A stretch of DNA of 48,621 nucleotides from a virus: positions 1 to 48,621 of IMG/VR virus record IMGVR_UViG_3300014838_001990; one strand, 5' to 3'. Within the stretch, counting starts at the first letter, position 1; every line of letters begins with the position of its first letter. A program made the position numbers and the translations under genes. Below, piece after piece: positions 990 through 44,644 of the stretch. The notes below the pieces were generated by a model, which was not told the origin of the DNA, did no database searches, and worked only from the letters and a program-made list of their open reading frames with translations.

Positions 990-2681
990 TTATGATTTTG
1001 TGACTGGACGGTGGGCAAGCCAACGCAAAATAGCTTCCACTGGATCAGGAATAGCAAGGCCGGACTCCATAGCTATCAGCCGAGCACGGGTTGGTTTACC
1101 GACATTCGGAAATTTCTGACACAACTCCTGATACGTTGTTTCTCCCACTGCTTTGCGAAGATGCTCTTCATAATTTGCGTCGAATTTCCACACCTGAACC
1201 GTTCCATCTGATTTTGCTAATGCGTCTAGCTCCGCGTTGTAGGCGTCCTCTTCAGCCCTTTTCTCTTTTGGAAAATCTGATGAATCTTTATCGTAGACCA
1301 CCCCAGTGGGGATACCGAACGAAATGGCGATCTTCGCAAACTCCATCAAATTTCGCTTTCCGCCTACCTCGATAATTGTCGAACCTGCTTGGTCAAGATC
1401 AATCCCCAAAGACTTGCCATATTCGGGAAATGCCAGCTTCTCTGTATCGCCTTCAACGATGAGGAGTCGAGTGGCGAAAAACAACTCGTTTCTCTCCGGG
1501 TCCAGTTCCTTAATGAGCTTTTCCCGTCGCGCTGTGTTGGTTGGGAGTGTGGATGGAAATACTTTTGTTGAGCCTGCCGTTTTGCGAACAAGCATCACTT
1601 GCTCATAGTCAGGAACCGCAACGAAGTGAGGTGAATGGGTCGTATAGATAACTTGATTCTTTTCGCCGATACGACGGAGCGTTTTGTAGAGTGAGCGTTG
1701 CATCTGGGGATGCAAGAACATTTCCGGCTCTTCAATGAGAAGAATTGCTCCCTGCTTCTGAGTTTCCTCGAATGCCTGAAGGATCGCCAGCACGATGGCG
1801 TTCTGCATCCCCTCACCCATCTCCTGGGCGCTGATCGTAAAACTGTCTTCCTTAACCAGCAAATCCAGCGTTTTATAGAAATCGAAACTATCTAACGGAG
1901 TGAAATATAAATCTATTTTGTCAGCATCGGCCGTGGGATCGAAACCCAATTGTCGCAGAACGTTTCTCTTAATAGCAGCCTCGACCTGCGTAAATGCGTC
2001 AGTACGCAGTAGCATCAGCGCAGACCGCATCAGAGCACGAAAACGTTCGATACGGGGAACCTGCTCTTCCGTCCCGTCCTGACGTTTCACAGTCACAGTG
2101 TCGCTGGTATCTTGCAGGCGGCGGTTGATGTCCTCGAACATTTGTCGCAGTAACGAATAGCGGGCAGATGGGAGTTGCTCCTTTAACGAGCGGTTGGTTC
2201 CGATGTAAATCAGGGGGATTGCATCGCGCACCTCTGCAGGGACTCCGACCAAACGCTCATATTGAGGCGCCTGGCCTGTCTTGGGAGCCTTGGCCAGCAC
2301 GCTTGGTGGTTGACCTTTGGCGTCTCGGCAAGTCTGCTCTAGTCGCGGCTGTCCCTTTTTCTCCCCAATTTTATAGCGCGTATATTCAAAGGAAAGTGCG
2401 TGAATGGCGGTTGGCGTTGCATTCTTGAATCTCTGATACTGAATCGGGGGAGCAACGGAGCAGGAAATCGTTATGTCACGAGCGGAATCGTGCATGAATA
2501 CATCTTCTGCTGCGAAACTCGATACGCTTACCCAGCCTGTTCCAAGCACACGCCGGAGAGCTTCAAGAATATTACTCTTCCCAGCGTTGTTCGGACCAAC
2601 GAGCGCACAAACCTGCGGCAATTCGAAAGTGACGTTTTCAATCGAGCGGAAATTCTGTATAGAAAGATTGGAGATCCGCAT
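990..2681 (-). CDS. OLD family ATP-dependent endonuclease (AAA + TOPRIM)
   Basis: 563 aa. The N-terminal ABC-type ATPase begins with a RecF/SMC-like motif (NFRSIENVTF) and has Walker A GPNNAGKS at residues 29-36, Walker B ILLIEEPE at 313-320 and an H-switch TTHSP at 347-351. The C-terminal TOPRIM nuclease shows the conserved glutamate at E410 (IVEGDTEK) and the DxD pair D464/D466 (VYDKDSSD). This is the class 1/2 OLD architecture. OLD nucleases act on phage or plasmid DNA and occur alone or with a UvrD-like helicase (Gabija). No helicase partner is adjacent here. The ATG at 2681 has a GGGAG ribosome site about 7 nt upstream, and roughly 170 bp separates it from the protease gene, so it probably has its own promoter. 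Family is confident; a defence role is inferred from the family and the neighbours. Confidence 0.9.
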   Translation of the reverse strand: MRISNLSIQNFRSIENVTFELPQVCALVGPNNAGKSNILEALRRVLGTGWVSVSSFAAEDVFMHDSARDITISCSVAPPIQYQRFKNATPTAIHALSFEYTRYKIGEKKGQPRLEQTCRDAKGQPPSVLAKAPKTGQAPQYERLVGVPAEVRDAIPLIYIGTNRSLKEQLPSARYSLLRQMFEDINRRLQDTSDTVTVKRQDGTEEQVPRIERFRALMRSALMLLRTDAFTQVEAAIKRNVLRQLGFDPTADADKIDLYFTPLDSFDFYKTLDLLVKEDSFTISAQEMGEGMQNAIVLAILQAFEETQKQGAILLIEEPEMFLHPQMQRSLYKTLRRIGEKNQVIYTTHSPHFVAVPDYEQVMLVRKTAGSTKVFPSTLPTNTARREKLIKELDPERNELFFATRLLIVEGDTEKLAFPEYGKSLGIDLDQAGSTIIEVGGKRNLMEFAKIAISFGIPTGVVYDKDSSDFPKEKRAEEDAYNAELDALAKSDGTVQVWKFDANYEEHLRKAVGETTYQELCQKFPNVGKPTRARLIAMESGLAIPDPVEAILRWLAHRPVTKS

Positions 2682-2849: not shown

Positions 2850-5444
2850 TTATGGACGTGGCCTGATTCGCAAGCTTTGTTGAATCTCTTCGTAGACGGG
2901 AAGCGCAGTCCCTGCCTCAATCGTTACTGCGATTCCGTAACGAATCAACTGACCGTCTGTGATTCCCGCGTCTCCCTTGCACCATACACGCAGGCCCAGA
3001 TGCCCATCGTTGATAAACGCTACGGCAGAGTCTCCCTCAAAATGCTCATGGAAAACACTTCCTCGTTTTACCGACGCATCGGCGGGTTGGCTTTTTCGTC
3101 TTTCGACACCGAGTGCCAGAATGGGTGAATCTAACGGAGCCGCCTCCAATCGGACGCAGCGATAACTCTGATGGCCTGACTTGATTGGAGAAAACCAGGC
3201 AAGAGTGACCGCAAGAGTACGGGGATCGGTAACGCCCTCTAAGCAAGCGGGCAAGGGAATCGAATAGCCATGCGCAGTGTCTGGCTGGAGCACACCGAAG
3301 CCCACCAGTGTGGCCCTGTTGCGGGAACACTCTAACGCCCGGTCAATATCGGGTATCCCAAAACCAACAAAGCGTGCGGAATTTTCAGCCCGTTCGACAT
3401 GTCGGCGTCTGTCGTCCGGTCCGCAGACTTCTTTGAGCAGTTCGTCATTACCAGTCCAGCGGGCGGAATGCAGGAGCAATGCCTTGACTACTACAGCATA
3501 GAATTCTGGATCAATATCGGAGAGTAAGGAACCACCTTCACGGTCCATGAGCGCCTCAAAAATGCGCGCCCCAGCCCTCGTCGCTAATGCGGTTGCAGCA
3601 CTTGTTCCTGCGGTGAGAGCTACCTGGTCAAGACGACCTTGGCCCTGAGCATCAGGCGCGGCCGTATTTAGGCCATAGATCCTGCGAGGCTGCGTTACAG
3701 CAACTTGTAGGCTCTCGCCAGTAGCCACCATGCGGACATATTCCCGCCCGCCGGGCAGAAAGAGTTCGGGTTTGATCATTCTTCGATAACCCAATCCCAA
3801 CCCGGAACTGACATTTGGAAGTGTACTGTCCTCAAGAGGGTCTACTGCGTAGTAGACAACCTGACGATTTGCCACGTTGTCGTCATGATGAGCGCCTATC
3901 GTCAGTGCGTTCAGCGCTTCCGCCGGAGAAAGGATTGTCCGTTCATGCTTAGCGGCATTCAATGACTTAATCACTGCGCGCTCACGCTCGTTTGGAGGTG
4001 CTTGCTCGAATGATGTCCAACTATCAAAGTCGGCAATCTCCAGAGGCGCTGTGACATTGCCGCCACTAACAAGAAACAGAATGTTATACCTGTCCGATAG
4101 GAAATCGAGAAGGCGAGCGAGTGGGCTGATCACTCCTGAAAACGGACGGCGAATGTCTCCCATCGACAGATTGATGAGAAATACTGTCGGGGCTACACCT
4201 TCTTCTGGACCTGTTCCCTTTATCCGCAGAATGGCATTGTGAATGGTATCGATCAGCAATCGGTCAGTCTGTGTGTGCTCATACCCATCCTCATGGGTGA
4301 CCATTAGCGGCCTGACATAAATAGGACGCGGGAGTGGAGTGCCCACTTCGTTACGGTCGCCGTGCAGAATAAGCGAGGCCATCGCGGTGCCATGCACTCG
4401 CTGAGAAACGAGTGCGCTATTTTGAAGGTCTTCCGGATCGTCGATGATCAACCTGTTCGCAAGAAGCACATGCGATTGAACGGGCATTCCGTCTAGAAGT
4501 GCCGCAATGGGCTCTCCCCGAGTGAGTTGTATCGCTACATCGTTAAGCGATCCATCGGTAGTAGCCTCTAATTCCAGAGAGTCGAGCAATACGCTCTGTG
4601 GCCGGAGAAACATGACCTCATCGGCTAGAGCAAGTCTTACAGCCTGATGATCGATGAGATTCTGGACGTACCCAGAAGGAACATCCACGAGCAAGCCATG
4701 ATAGGCGATATCGGAGATGATTGTCTCGTGTATGACTCGTCCGCCGCTGTCTGCTACGATCGCTCGAAGCGTCTCAGAGCAGGTCCGCCGCCGAGCCTCG
4801 CTTTCGCGATACCACAGTTCGACTTCTGTACGAACCGGTAGCTCTGGATGGAGGGCTGTCTGGGCGCGCCAGAATTCTATAGTCTCGTCAGGAATTCGGT
4901 CTTGTGGCCCCCAGGGCCGGAGGTCGCGGAGCTGAGAGAATAGGTGCTCAAATGGTATAAAGCCCCTGCGCAGAGGCTGCTCATTCTTCCACCGCTCCCA
5001 GAGGCCTAAGAGTTGGGTTAAGGCCTGGAGGTCAGGCATCGCGAGATAAAAACGGCATGGAACAGCTTTGTCAGTGCGATCTTGTCCTTCTCTGCCCTTG
5101 CGATCATCCTGGACAGCAAAGTCTTCATCTGGGGCAAAGTCGGTATCGTACTCTGCCATGAATTCGAGTCCATCAACTTTGCTGAGGGCTTTCAGGAAAT
5201 TATCAACCGTACCGGCAATCTCGAAGACGATTACGCGCTCCGGTGCGAGTGCAGTTGGATCATCGCGAAGTTCCATCTGGCCATTGGCCTGCGAAAGGAC
5301 TTTCTGGAGACGATCAAAAATAGGACCGAAGCGATCTCTTTGCCGTCCTCTCGCGGGCAGACGGAGCGCTGATCCTCCGCGTGGGCCACTGGGAAGTGCT
5401 GCGGGGCTAGGATTCGGAAGGCGAAGCAGAGGAAGCTCTGGCAT
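2850..5444 (-). CDS. ietS: Subtilisin-like S8 serine protease, IetS-like
   Basis: 864 aa. It has a long N-terminal region of about 300 residues without an evident signal peptide, then an S8 peptidase domain. A plausible catalytic tetrad is visible: D318 (AALLDGMP), H351 (HGTAMASL), the oxyanion Asn N463 (VSGGN) and S615 (GTSAATA). The ATG at 5444 follows a strong AGAGGGGGATA ribosome site and overlaps the end of the AAA ATPase gene by 38 bp, so the two are translationally coupled. An AAA ATPase plus subtilisin-like protease pair is the known IetAS arrangement, first described as a plasmid incompatibility/stability locus and later as an anti-phage system. Cytoplasmic action is inferred from the missing signal. 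The target substrate is unknown. Confidence 0.85.
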   Translation of the reverse strand: MPELPLLRLPNPSPAALPSGPRGGSALRLPARGRQRDRFGPIFDRLQKVLSQANGQMELRDDPTALAPERVIVFEIAGTVDNFLKALSKVDGLEFMAEYDTDFAPDEDFAVQDDRKGREGQDRTDKAVPCRFYLAMPDLQALTQLLGLWERWKNEQPLRRGFIPFEHLFSQLRDLRPWGPQDRIPDETIEFWRAQTALHPELPVRTEVELWYRESEARRRTCSETLRAIVADSGGRVIHETIISDIAYHGLLVDVPSGYVQNLIDHQAVRLALADEVMFLRPQSVLLDSLELEATTDGSLNDVAIQLTRGEPIAALLDGMPVQSHVLLANRLIIDDPEDLQNSALVSQRVHGTAMASLILHGDRNEVGTPLPRPIYVRPLMVTHEDGYEHTQTDRLLIDTIHNAILRIKGTGPEEGVAPTVFLINLSMGDIRRPFSGVISPLARLLDFLSDRYNILFLVSGGNVTAPLEIADFDSWTSFEQAPPNERERAVIKSLNAAKHERTILSPAEALNALTIGAHHDDNVANRQVVYYAVDPLEDSTLPNVSSGLGLGYRRMIKPELFLPGGREYVRMVATGESLQVAVTQPRRIYGLNTAAPDAQGQGRLDQVALTAGTSAATALATRAGARIFEALMDREGGSLLSDIDPEFYAVVVKALLLHSARWTGNDELLKEVCGPDDRRRHVERAENSARFVGFGIPDIDRALECSRNRATLVGFGVLQPDTAHGYSIPLPACLEGVTDPRTLAVTLAWFSPIKSGHQSYRCVRLEAAPLDSPILALGVERRKSQPADASVKRGSVFHEHFEGDSAVAFINDGHLGLRVWCKGDAGITDGQLIRYGIAVTIEAGTALPVYEEIQQSLRIRPRP

Positions 5445-6453
5445 TATCCCCCTCTTTGTGGGTCGATTGTTTCGCGCGTGCCTTGGATGTCCACATACTC
5501 AATTGTTCGTGAATGATGTTCTTAAGCTGCTTTTGCCCCGCAGACAGTACCTGACGCCTGCGAACATCGAGACAGAACTGCTCTGCCTCCGCGTAACTGA
5601 TCTTGCCGAGAACTTTAGCAATCGACGCTGGGGATAAGCCTACGGGTTCCTCAAAACGGGCCATAAAGAAACCGATGTATTCGGCAAGCTCTTTGTGCGA
5701 TGGCATGGGAAGATTTAGACGTAGCTGGAACCGCCGCCAAGCAGCGCGATCAAGGAGTTCAGGATGATTGGTCGCCGCAGCCACAATGGTGTAGCTGGGC
5801 AATTCATCTATCTGCATGAGTAGTGACGTGACAACACGTTTTATTTCGCCGGTCTCGTGAATATCGCCACGCTCTTTCCCAAGCGCGTCGAACTCATCAA
5901 AGAACAAGACGCAAGGTGTAGTGCGCGCATAATCAAACACGCGTTTCAGGCGAGCAGCCGTTTCGCCAAGATAGCTGCCGATCATCGATTCATATCGCAC
6001 GACGAATAATGAAACAGCCACAGCTTCAGCCAGGGCTTCAGCCACCGTCGTCTTACCCGTCCCCGGTGGGCCTATGAGAAGAACGCGACTGCGTGGCTCA
6101 AGACCGTGGGCACGCAGGATATCCGCTCGGTGCTGTTCCTCGATAAGCTGCTCAAGGCCCCGCCGTGAAGCAGGTGAGAGTACAAGGTCTTCGAGTCGCC
6201 TCCTTGGGACGATTTCAGAGATGAAATCCTTGCCTCTATTTAGCGAATCGATAGGCATCACCGTAGAGCTTTGCATCACGTTCCCATTCCCATTTCCGTT
6301 GGGCTGAATCACCTTGGCGAGTCGATCAGCCAACACGTCATGGCGCTTCGCGCGTTCCTCCGCAATAATCGCTTCGGTGACCATGCGAAATCCCCTTCTG
6401 TCACCAGTATTTCCCGCCTTGACAAGTGAGACAAGAAGGTCACTGCGTGCCAT
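5407..6453 (-). CDS. ietA: AAA ATPase, IetA-like
   Basis: 348 aa from the ATG at 6453, chosen because AGGAGGG stands directly upstream. Longer in-frame starts would run deep into the RHH gene. A helical N-terminal region of about 70 residues contains an Asn-Gly run (residues 52-58). A single classical AAA domain follows: Walker A GPPGTGKT at 128-135, Walker B VLFFDEFD at 182-189, sensor-1 AATNH near 226-230 and an arginine-finger-like RR at 240-241. Overall it resembles spastin/FtsH-type ATPases. It probably feeds or controls the downstream protease. The start overlaps the RHH gene by 14 bp and the end overlaps the protease gene, giving a tight three-gene operon. Confidence 0.85.
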   Translation of the reverse strand: MARSDLLVSLVKAGNTGDRRGFRMVTEAIIAEERAKRHDVLADRLAKVIQPNGNGNGNVMQSSTVMPIDSLNRGKDFISEIVPRRRLEDLVLSPASRRGLEQLIEEQHRADILRAHGLEPRSRVLLIGPPGTGKTTVAEALAEAVAVSLFVVRYESMIGSYLGETAARLKRVFDYARTTPCVLFFDEFDALGKERGDIHETGEIKRVVTSLLMQIDELPSYTIVAAATNHPELLDRAAWRRFQLRLNLPMPSHKELAEYIGFFMARFEEPVGLSPASIAKVLGKISYAEAEQFCLDVRRRQVLSAGQKQLKNIIHEQLSMWTSKARAKQSTHKEGDNARASSASPSES

Positions 6454-6649
6454 TTGACCCTCCTGCATTGCTCTTTCGGAGCTTTTCGATAGCTGCCTCA
6501 AGCAGCCAGTTGTTGCGTGAAAGGGGGATATCGCGGTGGTCCAACTCTTCATCGATCTGTTTGACCACATTCTCGGGCAGGCGAACCGTCACCGGTACTC
6601 GCGCTGCGCCGGACCGTTTCGACACCCCGTTGTTTGCTTTGCGATGCAT
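6440..6649 (-). CDS. Small ribbon-helix-helix (CopG/Arc-like) regulator
   Basis: 69 aa. It contains a beta strand with alternating residues (RVPVTVRLPENVV) followed by two helices with an SRNNWLLEAAIEKL segment, as in CopG/Arc ribbon-helix-helix proteins. It is the first gene of the operon with the AAA ATPase and protease and overlaps the ATPase start by 14 bp. No ribosome site precedes its ATG. Instead the predicted -10 box ends only a few bases upstream, which suggests a leaderless transcript. An imperfect 21-bp palindrome lies over that -10, fitting autorepression. Alternatively it could be an antitoxin-like accessory subunit of the protease system. Confidence 0.75.
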   Translation of the reverse strand: MHRKANNGVSKRSGAARVPVTVRLPENVVKQIDEELDHRDIPLSRNNWLLEAAIEKLRKSNAGGSNGTQ

Positions 6650-6650
6650 A

Positions 6651-6683
6651 GTGACATCATAATGGCGTCACAACAAATTGCAA
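6651..6683 (-). promoter_or_regulatory. Promoter and palindromic operator of the RHH-AAA-protease operon
   Basis: Read on the minus strand there is a TTGCAA -35 box (6678-6683), a 16-bp spacer and a TATGAT -10 box (6656-6661). The start codon at 6649 follows 6 nt after the -10. Overlying the -10 is a 21-bp dyad at 6651-6671 with arms GTGACATCAT and ATGGCGTCAC around a central A (8 of 10 positions symmetric). Such a site is well placed for repression by the RHH protein. Inferred from sequence only. Confidence 0.6.
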
Positions 6684-6752: not shown

Positions 6753-7199
6753 TCACTGGCTCGTGAGCGCGTACACCGTGTCGCCAACGAAGCGCTTGAA
6801 CGACTCGTTCTCCACGAACTGCTTGTAGACCTGCGTATCGTCATTCAAGAGATGCTGCATCACCTTGCCCAATGCCTGATCATGGGCCATGTGCGCGGTG
6901 TGCGGTGTATTCTCCTTCGCGTTCTGGCAGGCCGCGTCGGCGGCGACCTTGGGCGCGATGTCGTCTCGGATGCGCTTCGTTACCCGGTCGGTGTCGGTAG
7001 ACAGCGTGCCGAACTGCTCATTGAACGTCTTGAGGATGTTGCTCAGGCGGTCGAGCTCGGGCTCGGGCTTGTGGCCGTGAGCGTCCGTCGGCACCGGCTC
7101 AATCTCGGCGTCCTTGTCCGCCAGCGCGATCTTCATGGCCGCCTTCTTCTCGACGCGGTAGCTCTCCGCGTCTATGGCTTCGAGGATGCACGCGCCCCG
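6753..7199 (-). pseudogene. hsdR: Remnant of type I restriction subunit R (HsdR C-terminus)
   Basis: The translation from 7199 to 6753 matches the C-terminal helical end of HsdR proteins. Recognisable pieces are AIDAESYRVEKKAAMKIAL, LDRLSNILKTFNEQFG, TKRIRDDIAPKVAAD and a final YKQFVENESFKRFVGDTVYAL. The homology-bearing frame is closed upstream by a TGA at 7200-7202. The ATPase/helicase and nuclease parts are absent, as are hsdS and hsdM. This is the 3' stump of a deleted type I restriction locus and cannot restrict DNA by itself. An ATG at 7136 could still give a 127-aa fragment. Confidence 0.75.
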
Positions 7200-10555: not shown

Positions 10556-10840
10556 ATGGCTGAGATGGGTCACTCAGGTCATGACGTCACCGCACATCCA
10601 GAGCACCAGTTCATTGACTCCAAAGAACTCGCGCGTCGTTGGACACTACCGGAGTCGTGGATTCGTGATCAAGTGCGCGCTCGCGCGAGCGATCCTATCC
10701 CGCACGTGCGATTCGGTAAATATGTTCGATTCCGCTGGGGCAGTTCGGAACTCAACGGATGGGCAGAGCGGCGTATAGTAGGCATTGGTAACAAAACAAG
10801 GGGGTGGGAAGGGTCTTCGCCCAGGAGGGGCAATGAGTAG
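10556..10840 (+). CDS. Excisionase/AlpA-like DNA-binding protein
   Basis: 94 aa from ATG 10556, preferred over ATG 10511 because GGAGAGG lies 7 nt upstream. The core FIDSKELARRWTLPESWIRDQVR is a winged-helix helix-turn-helix of the MerR/excisionase type (HTH_17), followed by the conserved PHVRFGKYVRF wing. Its last 8 bases overlap the downstream integrase start, the usual arrangement of a directionality factor with its integrase. It would bind near the attachment site and bias recombination toward excision. Confidence 0.75.
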   Translation: MAEMGHSGHDVTAHPEHQFIDSKELARRWTLPESWIRDQVRARASDPIPHVRFGKYVRFRWGSSELNGWAERRIVGIGNKTRGWEGSSPRRGNE

Positions 10841-12005
10841 GACCCAACACCACCAAAAAGGATACATATTTCGCAAGGGCGGTTTTTGGTACTTGCGCTA
10901 TAGGGAGTTCGTTGCCACATCGGACGGCACGATTAAACAAGCTCAGAAGTGTCGTAATTTGTGTTCAGCAGGTGGTCCACAAGGGACCAAGGCGGCTGCA
11001 AAGCGTGTTGCGGATGAGTTTCTGCGAGCGATCAACGACGGGAGCATCAGGCCGGAAAACGCCGTCACTCTGTCTGCGTTTATATCCGACCAGTATCTGC
11101 CGTATGTGGAGCGTGAGAAAAGGCCTTCCACCTATTGCGGGTATCGGAAGATCTTTAAAGGATACTTGCAGAGGAGCTGCGAACGGCCGCTTCGCGATTT
11201 CCACACGGTCGATTGCGAGCGGCTGCTCACTAGCATCGCACAAGAGTACGACGTTAATCGCACGTCTCTTGCCCACATCAAGCATTTCCTCAGTGGCGTC
11301 TTTCGGTATGCGTCGCGAATGGGGGTACTAAGAATGCCAAATCCGGTCAGGGATGTATGTCTCCCCAAGGCGCGTTGCAGCGGGGTAACACACGCATATT
11401 CCTTGTTGGAGATAGAAAGCATTCTTGGTCTGGTACCGGATCCCGCGCGAACGGCGATCGCGGTGGCAGCGTTCACGGGCCTTAGAAAAGGCGAGTTGCG
11501 CGGTCTGCAACTTGCGGATTACGATGGCCAGCTTATTCACGTAGAGCGCAGCGTTTGGAAGGCGCACGTGGGTGACCCGAAGGGGAAACGTGGGAAGGGT
11601 GCAGTGCCGGTTATTGCTCCACTCGCGGAGAGGATCGAGGCACACATAAGAGCCTTCGGTCCTAAACTCTATCTTTTCGAGACCATGAATGGCAAGCCGG
11701 CTGATCTGGACTACATGACGCGCAAGGTCATTGTGCCCACGCTGAAAATCGCAAGGATACAGTGGCACGGTTGGCACGCTTTTCGCAGAGGTTTGGCAAC
11801 CAACCTTCACGAGCTGGGAGTGCAAGACATCGTGATCCAGGCAATCTTGCGGCACAGCGATGTCGCCGTTACCCGGGAGTCGTACATTAAACGGGACGGG
11901 GCAGATCCTCGAAGCTTGGCCGCCATGAAGGCTCTGGAAAACGAACTGTGCAACCACTGTGCAACCGTTGCACAGGATGAAACGAAAGAAGTTGTTGTAA
12001 ACTAA
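10833..12005 (+). CDS. Tyrosine recombinase / site-specific integrase (first)
   Basis: 390 aa from ATG 10833, which follows AGGAGGGG; an earlier in-frame start at 10785 lacks such a site. It has an N-terminal arm-binding segment (GYIFRKGGFWYLRYRE), a SAM-like core-binding domain and a C-terminal catalytic domain. All key residues are visible: R218 (TGLRKGEL), H315 and R318 (HAFRR), H341 (RHSD) and nucleophile Y351. It is coupled to the excisionase-like gene and ends 25 bp before tRNA-Ser, so it probably recombines at that tRNA. Its element must lie to the left or be decayed. It shows little similarity to the second integrase beyond the catalytic motifs. Confidence 0.9.
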   Translation: MSRTQHHQKGYIFRKGGFWYLRYREFVATSDGTIKQAQKCRNLCSAGGPQGTKAAAKRVADEFLRAINDGSIRPENAVTLSAFISDQYLPYVEREKRPSTYCGYRKIFKGYLQRSCERPLRDFHTVDCERLLTSIAQEYDVNRTSLAHIKHFLSGVFRYASRMGVLRMPNPVRDVCLPKARCSGVTHAYSLLEIESILGLVPDPARTAIAVAAFTGLRKGELRGLQLADYDGQLIHVERSVWKAHVGDPKGKRGKGAVPVIAPLAERIEAHIRAFGPKLYLFETMNGKPADLDYMTRKVIVPTLKIARIQWHGWHAFRRGLATNLHELGVQDIVIQAILRHSDVAVTRESYIKRDGADPRSLAAMKALENELCNHCATVAQDETKEVVVN

Positions 12006-12030: not shown

Positions 12031-12120
12031 GGAGGGTTGTGTGAGCGGTTGAAACAGGCGGTCTTGAAAACCGCTTTACGGGAAACCGTAACGGGGGTTC
12101 GAATCCCTCACCCTCCGCCA
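12031..12120 (+). tRNA. tRNA-Ser (anticodon UGA), CCA encoded
   Basis: Acceptor stem GGAGGGT (12031-12037) pairs with ACCCTCC (12110-12116). The discriminator G is at 12117 and an encoded CCA at 12118-12120. The anticodon stem GCGGT/ACCGC encloses the loop CTTGAAA with anticodon TGA at 12065-12067. A long class II variable arm (TTTACGGGAAACCGTAA region) and the T-loop GGTTCGAATCC follow. The structure is intact, so the gene is probably functional. It is the likely attachment site for the integrases on both sides. Confidence 0.95.
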
Positions 12121-12241: not shown

Positions 12242-13441
12242 GTGACCAAGAATCGGAGAGTATCCCTTTACATCTATTCAAAGGTAGGCGATGGCTGGAA
12301 ATACCGGAAGGCACCGGAGCGCCCCAAGAACCTGCCGGAAGGCAGTGCCTACGTCATCATGTGGTATGAGGGCGAGGACGCCGATGGAAAGCACCGCAAG
12401 CGGAGCTTGAATGTCGGGCGGCTGGCTGACGTAGCCAAAGTTGAAATCACAAAGAAGAAGGCGGCGTTGCTCAACCGGATTGTGGAGGGGAAGGACACCC
12501 CGGAGCCGGAACCTACCCCTGCCGCCCCGCTGGATAGTCCCCAGTTCATCACCGATGCCGTGAAAAATTACTTACAGGACTGCGAGGATCGCATTGGGAA
12601 TTCCGGCTACGGTTTCTCAAAGCGGACTCTGGTCTCGTACCGCAGACACCTTGCCTACCTGACAGACTTCGCACCCGCTACATCGCTGGCGGACATGGAT
12701 GAGGCGTTCTTCAAAAAGTACCGCCGCTGGCTTCGGGAACACCCCAACAAATTCAGCGACCGCACCTGCCATAACATTTTGCTGACGGCGAATACATTGG
12801 CACGGGTCAACGGTAATGAGAAGGGAAAGAAAATACTTGCGGAGATGAGTTTTCCGCCGAAGCCCTGCCGGGTCTACACGGATGAGGAGCTTGAGAAATT
12901 CTTCTCTTCGTGCTCTCCCGACGAAGCGTTGATCTACAAGTTTTTCCTGCATTCGATGGGACGGGAGCAGGAAGTCGCCAACACGGAAGTTCAAGACTTC
13001 AATTTTAAGAGCAATGTACTCCACATCTGCCCAAAGCTGGATAGAGGCTTCCGGCTGAAAAGCCAGAAGGGGCAAGCGGCATTGGGGCGCTATGTCCCCA
13101 TCCCAGCTTCTCTCATGCGTAAATTGCAGGAGCACTGCAAGGGCAAGCGTGAGCGTGATCTGGTGTTCCCCAATGCCGGAGGCGGGGTGGAAGGTCATTT
13201 CCTGCGGAAGTGCCAGCGCATCGCCAAGTGTGCGGGTCTAACCGGGTTTGAACTTCATGCCTTTCGGAAAACTGGGGCTACGAAGCTGCATCGGGCTGGA
13301 GCCAAAATCCGGGACATCTCGGCGTGGTTGGGGCACAAGGATACGAAGACCACTCAAATTTATTTGGGGGTGTCCGACGCCGCCGACGAAGCCTGTCAAA
13401 CATTCGTCAACAATACGCCGCTGGCTGCGATGTTTGGGTGA
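12242..13441 (+). CDS. int: Tyrosine recombinase / phage integrase (second)
   Basis: 399 aa with a GTG start at 12242, supported by GGAGG 7 nt upstream. The N-terminal domain carries a basic, acidic-Pro linker. The core-binding domain spans roughly residues 100-200. The catalytic domain has R241 (in the unusual context HSMGREQEV), H339 and R342 (HAFRKTG), H365 (GHKD) and Y374 (QIYLG). It sits about 120 bp downstream of tRNA-Ser, the usual place for the integrase of an element inserted at a tRNA 3' end, so it most likely belongs to the prophage that follows. Confidence 0.9.
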   Translation: MTKNRRVSLYIYSKVGDGWKYRKAPERPKNLPEGSAYVIMWYEGEDADGKHRKRSLNVGRLADVAKVEITKKKAALLNRIVEGKDTPEPEPTPAAPLDSPQFITDAVKNYLQDCEDRIGNSGYGFSKRTLVSYRRHLAYLTDFAPATSLADMDEAFFKKYRRWLREHPNKFSDRTCHNILLTANTLARVNGNEKGKKILAEMSFPPKPCRVYTDEELEKFFSSCSPDEALIYKFFLHSMGREQEVANTEVQDFNFKSNVLHICPKLDRGFRLKSQKGQAALGRYVPIPASLMRKLQEHCKGKRERDLVFPNAGGGVEGHFLRKCQRIAKCAGLTGFELHAFRKTGATKLHRAGAKIRDISAWLGHKDTKTTQIYLGVSDAADEACQTFVNNTPLAAMFG

Positions 13442-13812: not shown

Positions 13813-16362
13813 ATGGCTGCAATTCACGACCTCATAAATCAAATCGATGATCCTCTCCTACGTGAGCGACTCACTCGTGAGTGGCAAACTGCCATCCGAG
13901 ACAAGAGATTCGGACTTGTTTTTGAAGAGCATTTGCCAGAACTCTTGCCTTTACATAAAGCCCGCCCTCGGCGGGGGGACTTAGTGTGCAAGAAAAAGGG
14001 ACTTCTTAGAGAGGTATGGCAGGTCCGGCGTGTCAACGATGGCGTTGCGCTCTGCCAAAAACCGTCTCGCAAATCTGGTGGCATGGACGGCAACTCGCAG
14101 CTCGTCCGCTTCCCTGTTGGCGATCTTCTCGTCGTGCAGCAATTCGGTCGGCCAATCTTTCCTGCCTTAACTCCCGTGGACGCTGTTGCGAACGGGCCAG
14201 CCGACGCCCCATGGCACACCTTAATCGAGGCGGACAACTACCACGCTTTGCAACTCTTGGATTACCTCTATGCGGGTAAGGTGGATTGCATTTACATCGA
14301 CCCGCCCTACAACACCGGAGCCAGGGATTGGAAGTACAACAACGACTACGTTGATGAGAATGACGCTTGGCGGCACTCGAAATGGCTCACCTTCATGGAG
14401 AAGCGGCTCAAACTAGCGCAACGTCTATTAAAGCCGGACACTGGGGTGCTCATTGTGACTATTGACGAGCACGAAGTGCATCATCTTGGGATGTTGTTGG
14501 AGCAGCTATTCCCCAACATGTATCGTCAGATGGTAACAATCGTTACTACACCGGGTGGAGTTACCCAGGGACGGTTCTCACGGGTAGAGGAGTATGCACT
14601 TTTCTGTTTCAACTCAGAGGCATTCACGGCCTCAAGCCATGATGATCTCCTATCATCAGAAAACGGCAAGAAGGTTGCAGCGGCTCAGGATGTATGGCAA
14701 TCCCTCATCCGCCGAGGAGTTGGCTCGCAACGTGAAGACCGTCCGGGAATGTTTTTCCCGATCAGCATTGACCCAACGACCCGACAAATCCTCGGAGCAG
14801 GGAGCCCTTTGCCTTTAAGCAAAGAACCAAACTGGGGCCCTGCGGTAAAAAGGACGATTGCGTGGCCTGTTCGTTCAGACGGAGCACTCGGTCGATGGCG
14901 AGTTGGACCGGAGACCTTCAACAGCCTTCTCAAAAGAGGCTACGTGAAACTTGGAGGATATGACGAGAAAAGAAGAACATGGACCGTCTTATACCTTCAG
15001 CGGAAAGCCATAGCCGAGATCGAAGACGGAACGCTACAAGTCATCTCAAGGGATGCAGTCACAAACACTGTTGTTTTAGGGCATGGTGTCGGTTCAGAGC
15101 AACTGAAACCGATCAAAACGGTCTGGAACAGATCTACACATCATGCAGGCAGCCATGGCTCAACCCTACTACGAAACATTTTTGGTGAGAGCAGCCGATT
15201 CTCTTATCCAAAATCAATCTATGCCACTCGTGACACGCTCGCCGCTATTGTACGAGACAAGCCAAATGCGCTGATTTTGGATTTCTTTGCGGGCAGTGGG
15301 ACCACGCTCAATGCAGTAAACTTGCTCAACGCCAGCGACAATGGGAAACGCCGCTGCATACTCGTCACAAATAATGAGGTATCGGCAGAGGAAGCAGAGC
15401 GTCTCCGTGTGCAAGGGTTTGGGCCAGGCGACCCTGAATGGGAGAGCGCTGGAATCTGCCAGTCTGTGACTTGGCCTCGATCTAAATTTACGATTGTCGG
15501 CAGTCGGGATGATGGGACACCACTGCCCGGAAGCTACATGACGGGACGATACCTCGAAGCGGAAATGCCTCGCAAATTCACTCAGCTTGGCTTCGTTGAT
15601 TCCGCATCTTTAAACAAACCAGCGTCCAGGAAACAACTGATTTCGCTTTTAAACGATCTTCCTCAATCTTTAGTGGAGAAAGCTCCTTTTTTCGTCGTGT
15701 CACCGAAGCACACAACTAGCATCTTGTTTGACATTGCCAAAGCTGAAGAGTGGATCGCCGCATTAGAGGGTCAAGAACACATCACAGACTTCTATATCGT
15801 GACATCGAACAAGAAATTATTCGATGTCACGAAAACTCAGGTCATTGAGATGCTCGGGCCATCCCTTATCAAAGAAGAAGAAAAGCGTCCACTGGCAAGC
15901 GGGTTTGCCTCCAACTGCGTTTACCTGCGCATGGAGTTCTTAGACAAAGATCATGTCGCACTTAACCGTGCCTTCAGAGAGCTACTTCCACTGCTGTGGT
16001 TGAAGGCGGGAGCCGTGGGTTCGCAGCCTCGTTTAGCAACAGGGACTCCTCCAGAATGGTTTGTACCAGAGGCAAATAACTTCGCAGTCTTGCTAAAAGA
16101 AACGGCCTTTGGCTCGCTGCGTGCGGTGCTGAAGAAGAGACCGAAGGTTGGGTACGTGTACGTCGTGACCGATGCCAATGAATCATTTAAAGATATGCAA
16201 GCTGAACTGATAGAAGTTCTCGGCACAGACGACCGGGCTCCCGAAGTGATTCAACTGTATCGAGACTATCTGTTGAATTTCATGATCAACAAAGCTTCGG
16301 ATAGCGAGGGTGAACTGATGTCCACTGACAGAGGGGTGCAAAATGAAGCTCCCACTCTTTGA
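13813..16362 (+). CDS. mod: Type III-like DNA methyltransferase (Mod)
   Basis: 849 aa. The beta-class order of motifs is visible: the catalytic DPPYNTG motif at residues 163-169 precedes the SAM-binding DFFAGSGT motif near 490-497. The region between them (about 200-480) is the likely target-recognition part. The methylated base is expected to be N6-adenine. The long C-terminus (about 550-849) has no motif that I recognise. The ATG at 13813 has only a weak upstream GAGGG. Its last 20 bp overlap the Res gene, giving a two-gene operon. Placed directly behind the integrase, it looks like cargo or a superinfection-exclusion gene of the element. Confidence 0.88.
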   Translation: MAAIHDLINQIDDPLLRERLTREWQTAIRDKRFGLVFEEHLPELLPLHKARPRRGDLVCKKKGLLREVWQVRRVNDGVALCQKPSRKSGGMDGNSQLVRFPVGDLLVVQQFGRPIFPALTPVDAVANGPADAPWHTLIEADNYHALQLLDYLYAGKVDCIYIDPPYNTGARDWKYNNDYVDENDAWRHSKWLTFMEKRLKLAQRLLKPDTGVLIVTIDEHEVHHLGMLLEQLFPNMYRQMVTIVTTPGGVTQGRFSRVEEYALFCFNSEAFTASSHDDLLSSENGKKVAAAQDVWQSLIRRGVGSQREDRPGMFFPISIDPTTRQILGAGSPLPLSKEPNWGPAVKRTIAWPVRSDGALGRWRVGPETFNSLLKRGYVKLGGYDEKRRTWTVLYLQRKAIAEIEDGTLQVISRDAVTNTVVLGHGVGSEQLKPIKTVWNRSTHHAGSHGSTLLRNIFGESSRFSYPKSIYATRDTLAAIVRDKPNALILDFFAGSGTTLNAVNLLNASDNGKRRCILVTNNEVSAEEAERLRVQGFGPGDPEWESAGICQSVTWPRSKFTIVGSRDDGTPLPGSYMTGRYLEAEMPRKFTQLGFVDSASLNKPASRKQLISLLNDLPQSLVEKAPFFVVSPKHTTSILFDIAKAEEWIAALEGQEHITDFYIVTSNKKLFDVTKTQVIEMLGPSLIKEEEKRPLASGFASNCVYLRMEFLDKDHVALNRAFRELLPLLWLKAGAVGSQPRLATGTPPEWFVPEANNFAVLLKETAFGSLRAVLKKRPKVGYVYVVTDANESFKDMQAELIEVLGTDDRAPEVIQLYRDYLLNFMINKASDSEGELMSTDRGVQNEAPTL

Positions 16363-18862
16363 TTTTCAAAAAGACGTGCTCCATGCCTTGCGGGATAAGT
16401 TGATTACCGCACGTACATATGCCTCCAGCGATAACCCTCAGGCAATAGCGTTTTCCGCACCTACAGGAAGCGGCAAGACGATTGTGATGACCTCGCTTTT
16501 AGAGGCCATATTAGTTGCTCCTGACGACCAACTTGCATGGCCTAGCACTTGGACACCACAACCAGATGCCGTCATCCTTTGGGTGTCAGATATGCCGGAG
16601 CTAAATGAACAGACACGCATGAAGATTGAAAGCAAGTCGGATTCGATTAAATCGAGGTGGCAGCTCGTTTCGATTGATTCTACGTTTGACGCCGAACGAC
16701 TTGAAGGTGGGCGAATCTACTTCATCAACACCCAGAAGCTCGGAACCGACAAGCTCCTAACCAAAGTTGGTGATGGACGTGACTACTCCATCTGGACCAC
16801 TCTCACGAATACAGCACAGATGGCGCTCAACCGTTTCTACGTAGTCATCGATGAGGCACATCGGGGCATGACCGGAGCAAGAGCCGCCAGGGAAGCGCAA
16901 ACGATTATGCAGCGCTTTCTTTTGGGCGCTCCAGAAGTGGGGCTGGTGAAAATGCCTCTTGTCATTGGTTTATCAGCTACGCCGAAACGTTTCATGGATT
17001 TGCTTGAACAAGCGCCTCATACCGTCCATAAAGTCACTATTCCTGTGGAAGACGTGCGGCTCTCAGGTCTGCTAAAAGATCGTATTCTGATTCATCATCC
17101 TAAGTCTATATCGTTGGCGGAAATGGCACTGCTGGAAGAGGCTGCGAGACGATGGGATGAATTGCGAGAGGAATGGACTAAATACTGCTCGTTGGAGCAC
17201 GAATCTTTAGTATCTCCGATTCTCGTCATACAGGTTGAGAACAAAACAGATGATCAGTTATCGAAAACGCACCTGAGTGATGCACTGGACGTTATTGAAT
17301 CCGCTATTGGCCGCCGACTTGACGACTGTGAGGTCGCCCACGCTATGCACGACGTGAGTGACATGATAATTGGCGGTAGGAGGATTCGCCGTGTCGAAGC
17401 GTCTCGAATTGATGAAGACAGCGATATAGGAATCGTGTTCTTTAAAACTAGCTTATCTACGGGATGGGACTGTCCCCGAGCTGAAGTGATGATGTCCTTC
17501 AGACGGGCAGAAGATCACACGTACATTGCGCAACTGCTTGGCCGAATGGTTAGAACCCCGCTAGCTCGTCGTATCGAGCGTAATGCTGCTCTGAACGATG
17601 TCCACTTGTTCCTTCCTCATTTTGACGCTGGCGCTGTGCAAAGGGTGATTGCAGATTTACAGAACGTGGAAGACGTGCCGCCGTCCGAAATTGGTTCGAG
17701 TCATGAGCTTGTGGTGCTCAAGCGACGAGAGGACTGCGATGAAGTGTTTGCTGCAATGGAATCACTGATCACCTATCGTGTAAATGCAACCCGTGTACAA
17801 AGCCCGCTTCGCCGTTATATGGCCATTGCTAGAGGGCTGACGTTGGACGGTGTGGACCTTGAAGTGTGGGAGCAAGCTAAAGATAAAATCACTGGGTGGA
17901 TGGAGACGCAACTGAGTGGACTTAAAGAGGCGGGAAGATTCACCGAAGCTGCAAAGGAGATCGCCCAGGTTGGACTTACGACCGTAGCTGTCTCACAGGG
18001 ATCGAGCGTAACAGAGGCATTGGAGAACTATTACATCCATGCATCCGATGCAGATATAGAACGTCTCTTCGAAGAGAGCGGGCGCATTCTCAGTCACGGG
18101 CTACACATGAGCTACTGGCAAAAACACGGCAACCGAGACTCGTTCGAAGTCAAAATTGAAGTGATTGTTCTAGCCAAGAATCATGAGGCCATGGTGGCCC
18201 TCGAAGGAAATGGAGAAACTGAATTCGATCTCCTTTACGACCTACATAAAAAGGAGATTGGAAGACTGCGAGAGCAACGGCGTTCGTATTACGAGAAACT
18301 TAGGCTGGCTACTGCCAAACCCTCTGAAGTACCTCTTCATCTGCCAGAAAGCATCGATTTCCGTAGAAATATGACGGACCCGCTATGGACGAAGCACCTG
18401 TACGTGGAAGAAGGTGAGACATTCCGTGCAGAACTTGGTTCCTGGGAAGCCGGAGTTCTGGAAGAGGAGCTAGCAAATCCGAAGGTCGTTGCGTGGCTAC
18501 GAAACGTTGATCGGAAGCCATGGTCGCTAGAGATTCCTTATGCGACTGGCGGCGAGATTAGACCTATGTTTCCCGACTTCGTTATCGTTCGGCAGTCGAA
18601 TAAAGAGTTTGTTTGCGATATCTTGGAACCGCATGATTCTAGCCTTGCGGACAACTACGAAAAGGCGGTCGGTCTCTGCCAGTTTGCCGAAAAGCATGGA
18701 CATCTCTTTGGCCGAATTCAGTTGATACGGAAAGCCAAAAGTCCCTCGGGCGAGGATCACTTCTACCGTCTGGACATCAACAGATCTCCCATTCGGAAAA
18801 AGGTGGCTTTGATTTTAAGCAACGCTCAACTTGATGCGATCTTTGCTACGGACGCTACCTGA
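16343..18862 (+). CDS. res: Type III-like restriction subunit (Res), DEAH helicase-nuclease
   Basis: 839 aa. An SF2 helicase core has Walker A APTGSGKT at 39-46, DEAH at 170-173 (VVIDEAHRG) and motif III GLSATP. The second RecA-like lobe carries TSLSTGWDCPRAEV and the motif VI-like QLLGRMVR. The C-terminal part has a PD-(D/E)xK-like core, with PDF at 744-746 (MFPDFVIV) and DILEPH from D759. The usual Lys of the ExK motif is replaced in this reading (EPH). GAGGGG precedes the ATG at 16343 and the start overlaps Mod by 20 bp. Together with Mod it should cut unmodified foreign DNA after ATP-driven diffusion or translocation. Cleavage competence is inferred. Confidence 0.85.
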   Translation: MKLPLFDFQKDVLHALRDKLITARTYASSDNPQAIAFSAPTGSGKTIVMTSLLEAILVAPDDQLAWPSTWTPQPDAVILWVSDMPELNEQTRMKIESKSDSIKSRWQLVSIDSTFDAERLEGGRIYFINTQKLGTDKLLTKVGDGRDYSIWTTLTNTAQMALNRFYVVIDEAHRGMTGARAAREAQTIMQRFLLGAPEVGLVKMPLVIGLSATPKRFMDLLEQAPHTVHKVTIPVEDVRLSGLLKDRILIHHPKSISLAEMALLEEAARRWDELREEWTKYCSLEHESLVSPILVIQVENKTDDQLSKTHLSDALDVIESAIGRRLDDCEVAHAMHDVSDMIIGGRRIRRVEASRIDEDSDIGIVFFKTSLSTGWDCPRAEVMMSFRRAEDHTYIAQLLGRMVRTPLARRIERNAALNDVHLFLPHFDAGAVQRVIADLQNVEDVPPSEIGSSHELVVLKRREDCDEVFAAMESLITYRVNATRVQSPLRRYMAIARGLTLDGVDLEVWEQAKDKITGWMETQLSGLKEAGRFTEAAKEIAQVGLTTVAVSQGSSVTEALENYYIHASDADIERLFEESGRILSHGLHMSYWQKHGNRDSFEVKIEVIVLAKNHEAMVALEGNGETEFDLLYDLHKKEIGRLREQRRSYYEKLRLATAKPSEVPLHLPESIDFRRNMTDPLWTKHLYVEEGETFRAELGSWEAGVLEEELANPKVVAWLRNVDRKPWSLEIPYATGGEIRPMFPDFVIVRQSNKEFVCDILEPHDSSLADNYEKAVGLCQFAEKHGHLFGRIQLIRKAKSPSGEDHFYRLDINRSPIRKKVALILSNAQLDAIFATDAT

Positions 18863-43744: not shown

Positions 43745-44644
43745 ATGGCTACTGCAAATTCTACCACCAAACCATCCGTCTACGAAACCATCACTGCTCG
43801 CATAATCGAGCAACTCGAAAAGGGAGCTATCCCTTGGGAAAAACCGTGGCGCACTTACGGCGGAGTTCCTACGCTCTCCCGTAATCTGCTCTCGCAGAAA
43901 CCATATCGGGGCATCAATGCCCTGCTTACAGGACTAGCGCCGTATAGCTCTCCGTTCTGGGTCACTTACAAGCAAGCCGCATCCATCGGCGGGCATGTTA
44001 ACGCTGGGGAGAAATCAACTCCCATCTGCTTCTGGAAGTTTGGCGAGTCGGAGAAGGAACAACCAGACGGCGAGATTACCAAGCAGGAATGGGCGATGTG
44101 CCGTCTGTATCACGTCTTCAACTTGGAACAATGCACCATTCCCGGTCTCAAGGTTGACGATACTCCGGTTGCGGGTAAGACGTTCGACGCAATCCCAAAA
44201 TGCGAAGAAATTCTCGCCAAGTGCTTCTGCAAGCCGGAGATTAAACACGGCGGAGATAAGGCGTTTTACTCGCCTAGTCTCGACTACATCAACATGCCCC
44301 AGCGTGAAGCATTCGACAATCCAGAGAGCTATTACAGCACGCTATTCCACGAACTCACACATAGCACGGGGCACCGCAATCGGCTCAATCGTGACGGCAT
44401 CACCTCGATGCATTTCTTTGGCGATGCGGTCTACAGCAAGGAAGAACTCGTTGCGGAGATGGGAGCGGCATTCATCTCCGGTCATGCCGGAATCGAAGCC
44501 AAGACGCTAAGAAACTCCACGGCATACCTGCAAAGCTGGATTCGAGTGCTCAAAGGCGATAGCAAGCTAGTCATCACGGCAGCATCCGCAGCGCAAAAAG
44601 CCGCCGACCTGATTCTAGGGTCGGCGGTAGCGGAGGGGAAATAG
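43745..44644 (+). CDS. ardC: ArdC-type antirestriction protein (ssDNA-binding + zincin)
   Basis: 299 aa with ATG 43745 after AGGAA. The N-terminal ArdC domain (VYETITARIIEQLEKGAIPWEKPW, then YRGINALLT) is the ssDNA-binding fold also found in TraC-type primases. The C-terminal zincin-like metallopeptidase domain shows HELTHSTGH with H202, E203 and H206 and the downstream KEELVAEMGAAF helix. ArdC proteins protect incoming DNA from host restriction. Here it heads the plus-strand early operon, fitting expression soon after DNA entry. It is notable that the same element carries its own restriction system. Confidence 0.9.
   Translation: MATANSTTKPSVYETITARIIEQLEKGAIPWEKPWRTYGGVPTLSRNLLSQKPYRGINALLTGLAPYSSPFWVTYKQAASIGGHVNAGEKSTPICFWKFGESEKEQPDGEITKQEWAMCRLYHVFNLEQCTIPGLKVDDTPVAGKTFDAIPKCEEILAKCFCKPEIKHGGDKAFYSPSLDYINMPQREAFDNPESYYSTLFHELTHSTGHRNRLNRDGITSMHFFGDAVYSKEELVAEMGAAFISGHAGIEAKTLRNSTAYLQSWIRVLKGDSKLVITAASAAQKAADLILGSAVAEGK

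Follow-up and report, generated by a model that had tools for sequence, protein, structure and literature searches.

The window analyzed here is the full 48,621-nucleotide (nt) viral record IMGVR_UViG_3300014838_001990 of IMG/VR. On its minus strand it contains three overlapping genes, in the order rhh, ietA and ietS, that encode a small protein of putative ribbon-helix-helix (RHH) type, an AAA+ ATPase and an S8 subtilisin-like protease. We read these genes, with a probability of about 0.75, as a chromosomal IetAS module of a divergent type that is controlled by its own transcriptional RHH autorepressor. The assignment of the RHH gene as the dedicated repressor of the operon is strongly supported by comparison with related loci. 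New here are a third, regulatory gene, encoding a putative repressor of 61–69 amino acids (aa), and a 19-bp candidate operator, both added to IetAS, a known phage-defense system of two genes. The features of the operon are as follows.

6440–6649, minus strand: RHH regulator, 69 aa from the ATG at 6649 (predicted leaderless) or 61 aa from the GTG at 6625 (aligning with the MSKR starts of relatives)
5407–6453, minus strand: ietA, AAA+ ATPase of 348 aa, with Walker A GPPGTGKT at residue 128, Walker B FFDEFD at 184 and WRRF at 239
2850–5444, minus strand: ietS, S8 subtilisin-like protease of 864 aa, with the triad D318/H351/S615
6652–6670, strandless: candidate operator, two near-palindromic 8-bp TGRYRYCA boxes, TGACGCCA (6670–6663) and TGATGTCA (6659–6652), 11 bp apart and overlapping the −10 hexamer
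6678–6683, minus strand: −35 hexamer TTGCAA of the predicted operon promoter, a single consensus match (9/12 consensus; 16-nt spacer) and no evidence on its own
6656–6661, minus strand: −10 hexamer TATGAT, within the operator; predicted start site at ~6649, the RHH ATG; TATGAT is kept in loci L070, L036 and L042
6458–6464, minus strand: Shine-Dalgarno sequence AGGAGGG for ietA, within the RHH gene

All three open reading frames were found at the coordinates given by the first-pass annotation, which had described an overlap between ietA and ietS and a 69-aa RHH gene overlapping the ATPase start. Both overlaps agree, with 38 nt shared by ietA and ietS (5407–5444) and 14 nt by the RHH gene and ietA (6440–6453). 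The mechanically listed ietA frame begins 39 codons before the true start, which is not at 6570 but at the ATG at 6453 (MARSDLL); this ATG aligns with the start of the relatives and follows the AGGAGGG at 6464–6458. Because the genes overlap and this ribosome-binding sequence lies within rhh, coupled translation of rhh and ietA is suggested.

The identification of the ATPase and protease as an IetAS-like pair, also proposed at first pass, is well founded, as both PADLOC models match over nearly their full length (IetA: PDLC04232, E = 1e-143, model positions 1–327 of 330; IetS: PDLC04233, E = 8.3e-289, model positions 1–849 of 855). The more general AAA and Peptidase_S8 models are matched with E-values of 1e-30 and 2.3e-13, respectively, and the two genes are adjacent, as in IetAS in the PADLOC sense. 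The Walker A and B motifs and the catalytic triad, both characteristic of IetAS, are intact; the triad is invariant in 81/81 long relatives, and S615, previously singled out as the catalytic residue of the protease, is the serine of a GTSAA motif. The equivalog cut-offs of the NCBIfam IteA/IteS models are missed: IetA scores 243.1 bits against a cut-off of 510 and IetS 60.4 against 900. Since these scores are far under the cut-offs, the pair is not classed as an equivalog of IteA/IteS and is placed within the PADLOC family only, and on these matches the module of the window is a divergent branch of the IetAS family. The nearest IetA, at 75% identity, is from an Acidobacteria assembly (L035). 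The mechanism of IetAS was still listed as undescribed in a 2023 survey (PMC9958689).

Conservation of the small gene and its candidate operator

The loci compared comprise 80 from a genome scan with an IetA alignment, plus 28 viral and 5 plasmid loci, in which matches directly before ietA were sought with an RHH profile built from the window protein and two relatives. An RHH gene directly precedes ietA in a group of loci whose IetA proteins show 59–75% identity. Thirteen of them are distinct and intact: the window and 12 further loci from several phyla (L035, L070, L036, L059, L007, L057, L050, L042, L009, L053, L051 and L138), with L049, a near-copy of L009, not counted. L138 emerged later, when 297 genomes were searched with an RHH profile; here too the RHH gene adjoins ietA, whose product is 69% identical. 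The overlap with ietA is 14 or 11 nt in all intact loci, with the RHH stop codon placed in the ietA start (ATGGCxxGxAGTGA for the 14-nt overlap; a TAG version for the 11-nt overlap).

The RHH proteins share 34–71% identity with the window copy. Outside the overlap, their nonsynonymous divergence (dN) is far below the synonymous divergence (dS), with dN/dS of 0.07/0.38, 0.12/1.32 and 0.24/1.55 for the closest pairs with measurable dS. Each of the nine RHH-positive host genomes searched (3.4–7.3 Mb) has one copy of the family, at ietAS. By these measures, the small gene encodes a genuinely conserved protein under purifying selection. A chance reading frame over the ietA start is excluded by the 12 further loci, by the selection outside the overlap and by the conserved geometry. 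Conservation and selection, together with a predicted monomer that shows helices at residues 26–38 and 45–61 after a strand-like VTVRLP stretch (pLDDT, the predicted local distance difference test score, 68; low confidence), also support the RHH call made at first pass. The three-gene unit with its own putative DNA-binding regulator that was proposed at the same time is borne out by the conservation of the RHH gene before ietA in the 13 loci.

Upstream of rhh, the predicted promoter reads TTGCAA-16-TATGAT, with TGACGCCA TTA TGATGTCA lying over the −10 hexamer. Most RHH-positive loci have the same half-site upstream, in sets of two to four boxes that keep register. Box pairs in these upstream regions are spaced by 11 bp in 15 cases, by 22 bp in 8 and by 33 bp in 4, against 0.18 pairs at 11 bp (largest 4) in 300 shuffles, and exact TGATGTCA is observed 9 times against 0.19 expected in 16 RHH-positive upstreams (0 in 87 RHH-negative regions); the shuffle figures overstate independence, because the box motif was first read from the same upstream regions, and some of the RHH-positive loci are close relatives. 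The composite TGRYRYCA-N3-TGRYRYCA matches once in the window, at the operator, with 0.00 expected and none found in 100 shuffles. Among 120 loci searched it matched only at the operator site, and 16 genomes (~80 Mb) together contain 9 matches, of which 5 lie at ietAS. Pairs of TGRYRYCA boxes at 11 or 22 bp were absent from all 86 RHH-negative loci. At the sequence level, the arrangement is that of an RHH regulator, with a tandem short palindromic operator of about one-turn spacing at its own promoter, and 6652–6670 is a new candidate RHH operator.

Because the conserved array sits on the promoter, these data support a repressor. RHH dimers would bind the neighboring boxes, one helical turn (11 bp) apart, cooperatively, and the bound protein would occlude RNA polymerase at the −10 hexamer and at the predicted start at the RHH ATG, which would repress rhh-ietA-ietS. 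The gene overlaps would couple translation, such that repressor, ATPase (antitoxin/activator) and protease (toxin/effector) would be produced in a set order and in small quantities. Were the RHH protein lost or diluted, for example upon transfer to a new host or upon infection, a burst of ietAS expression would follow. IetA and IetS would then act as in the studied homologues, with the ATPase neutralizing the protease (PMC5006074).

The RHH protein might instead be an activator, or a two-way controller like the C proteins of restriction-modification (R-M) systems, and no simple repressor. Members of the family do precede a type II R-M operon, where a controller of delayed expression would be useful, but boxes on the −10 hexamer and near the start codon occupy a position typical of repression, and we regard this alternative as unlikely.

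Several observations count against the autorepressor reading, in addition to the limits on the shuffle figures given above. Activation by the RHH protein is compatible with the data, and the array is weak or single in L007, L057, L047, L048, L041 and L035. The Pfam RHH_1 model matches the window protein with E = 0.014, below the gathering score (5/12 relatives are matched, the best at 0.0025 and all weakly), and Foldseek with the low-confidence monomer model gave no useful match. Furthermore, most IetAS loci have no RHH gene, and the gene is thus dispensable for the core function of IetAS.

Decay and replacement of the RHH gene

A survey of RHH homologues for co-occurrence with ietA and ietS, which the first-pass annotation had proposed as a check, gave a divided result: the association is confined to one IetA branch, with 13 distinct intact, 4 decayed and 3 replaced loci, and does not extend to IetAS loci at large. 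The RHH gene is decayed in L038, L041, L047 and probably L048, by frameshift, internal deletion or heavy divergence, and ietA and ietS are full length in these loci; since these loci come from metagenome assemblies, isolated frameshifts could reflect sequencing errors. A tree of 103 IetA sequences places the intact, decayed and replaced loci together in a single group of 36 rows, although its support (85/74) is not firm, and the intact-RHH label requires 8 changes vs 12.5 in shuffles. The simplest reading is a single gain of the RHH gene, followed by repeated losses and replacement.

In the three replaced loci (L002, L039 and L063), the slot before ietA holds a different RHH-like protein. TCATGA repeats at multiples of 8 bp precede this second protein in two of the three. 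Pfam did not recognize the two of these proteins that were scanned, and their putative RHH fold is our own reading of the sequence.

These distributions bear on a second possibility raised at first pass, that the RHH protein is a sensor or second antitoxin, which would hold the protease inactive directly and free it upon infection. Many RHH proteins are antitoxins of type II systems. The gene is co-encoded with a protease toxin, and models of BrnA-like antitoxins match the RHH protein, although very weakly. Such a role is hard to reconcile with decay of the gene beside full-length ietA and ietS, and with its absence from most IetAS loci. In addition, the protein of 61–69 aa has only a short variable tail beyond the RHH core, leaving no room for the toxin-binding domain of a type II RHH antitoxin, and in the homologues of Salmonella genomic island 1 (SGI1) and pTiC58 it is the AAA ATPase that has been shown by experiment to be the antitoxin, neutralizing the subtilisin-like protease toxin (PMC5006074). 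We therefore consider a sensor or antitoxin improbable; of the two roles first suggested, repressor or sensor/antitoxin, the former is retained.

Members of the RHH family outside IetAS

The family is rare, with any match in only 3/297 and 5/398 sampled genomes. Protein searches placed members before an operon of cytosine methyltransferase and DUF4928 on plasmids, upstream of the cytosine methyltransferase gene of Burkholderia phage Menos, before the type II R-M genes of a viral contig (L121) and before an R-M operon in sampled Pseudomonadota genomes (L140, L141, L143 and L144). Where annotated, the R-M operons behind the RHH gene (L115, L116, L118, L119, L121, L140, L141, L143 and L144) encode cytosine methyltransferase and DUF4928, with a Vsr endonuclease in some. 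Upstream of the R-M-linked RHH genes, TGGCGCCA and a one-mismatch copy are found exactly 11 bp apart in all of these loci but L143, which has weak boxes only. The center of the box differs between the R-M and IetAS forms, and the TGGTGCCA boxes of L050, L053 and L009 bridge both. Lying outside IetAS, the R-M-linked boxes, and likewise the ParA-linked arrays described next, lend the autorepressor reading independent support.

Four other loci (L117, L124, L139 and L142) have their family member located after a ParA-like gene. In L124 (3750–4400), long arrays of boxes spaced by 11 bp flank the RHH gene on both sides and are a possible parS centromere.

The RHH gene of the window could accordingly be a partition-type (centromere-binding) leftover of a plasmid or integrative element, acting on parS-like boxes and affecting ietAS secondarily. 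The ParA-linked members and the L124 arrays would fit such an origin, as would the stabilization of mobile elements by IetA/IetS homologues (PMC5006074). However, the ietAS-linked RHH gene precedes ietA and not ParA in the loci inspected, around which no systematic parA search was made. The boxes number only 2–4 and always lie on the operon promoter, and the gene is locked to ietA by the overlap and present in one copy per genome. A partition leftover is thus very improbable.

Returning to a dedicated regulator, we infer a lineage common to plasmid partition proteins that was recruited to at least two defense or addiction modules, type II R-M and IetAS. More tentatively, and with the odds rather against it, this single family of small RHH regulators, which is related to plasmid partition proteins and would recognize TGRYRYCA boxes at 11 bp, may be a portable control cassette that moves among partition, R-M and IetAS modules, such that incoming boxes could titrate the RHH protein and derepress defense. 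If true, this titration would connect defense expression with the entry of rival mobile elements, and also with the incompatibility phenotype of ietAS.

Genomic neighborhood and comparison with known systems

Reading rightwards along the window, a VWA-like DUF2201 gene is followed by an OLD/GajA-like nuclease and then by the IetAS operon. Next come a fragment of type I restriction subunit R, a gene for a kumamolisin-type protease, an integrase gene and tRNA-Ser, with the prophage proper on the right-hand side of the tRNA gene. The prophage has a separate integrase, genes resembling type III R-M, a portal and a terminase. The neighboring features are as follows.

990–2681, minus strand: OLD/GajA-like ATPase-TOPRIM nuclease, adjoining ietS
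6753–7172, minus strand: type I restriction subunit R remnant, C-terminal 139 aa, 78% to Sphaerotilus, ending just before the RHH promoter
12031–12120: tRNA-Ser, flanked on both sides by integrase genes (10785–12005 and 12242–13441)
13813–18862, plus strand: at the prophage's left end, genes for a type III methyltransferase and for restriction-like proteins
43745–44644, plus strand: ArdC-type antirestriction protein with a zincin domain, inside the prophage part

The two flanking integrase genes suggest that tRNA-Ser is a reused integration site; a second copy of its 3′ end, as an attachment (att) repeat, was not found elsewhere in the window. Because IetAS is left of tRNA-Ser and the prophage to the right, the operon is placed in the bacterial flank, outside the prophage, in what looks like a bacterial defense island. 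Phage cargo was rejected as an explanation on the same position of the prophage genes and the lack of a further att repeat in the window. The OLD-family nuclease was considered as an IetAS component and is treated as a neighbor, as the other ietAS loci retrieved have no relative of it nearby. Nothing useful came from scanning viral sequences with this nuclease or with IetS alone.

C proteins, CapW/BrxR, CapH and CapS are dedicated regulators encoded at the head of defense operons; they are helix-turn-helix or WYL/STAS proteins, whereas the regulator of the window is of putative RHH type. The anti-phage IetAS system and toxin-antitoxin pair of pTiC58 (IetAS in PADLOC; IteA/IteS in NCBIfam) resembles the window in its AAA ATPase followed by an S8 protease, its overlapping genes, and its triad and Walker motifs. 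It has two genes, whereas the window adds the third, regulatory gene and the candidate operator, and the window pair falls short of the NCBIfam cut-offs. SgiAT of SGI1 likewise combines an AAA ATPase with a subtilisin-like protein, for which the antitoxin and toxin roles were shown experimentally (PMC5006074); it consists of two genes, ATPase first, and no RHH gene is described. The literature searched, which covered few subscription journals and did not include the original IetAS reports, makes no mention of IetAS together with an RHH protein.

RHH partition proteins such as ParG and pSM19035 ParB/omega bind tandem short repeats (PMC9499535), as proposed for the window protein, members of whose family follow ParA; the window gene differs in having no ParA directly before it, and its repeats are confined to the ietAS promoter. 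By analogy, the closest functional parallel is RptR, a small repressor encoded by the first gene of a type I R-M/DarTG2 defense island, which acts on tandem short palindromes over the −10 hexamer (PMC12255303). Both would be small dimers encoded first in a defense operon and autorepressing through tandem palindromes over the −10 hexamer, on the window side as judged from sequence. They differ in that RptR is all-helical and recognizes TAGCTA in 9-bp repeats, whereas the window protein is of putative RHH type with TGRYRYCA boxes at 11 bp. A single regulator family, with a common operator grammar, is found ahead of two unrelated defense or addiction systems and in partition loci, as an RHH counterpart of RptR and the C proteins.

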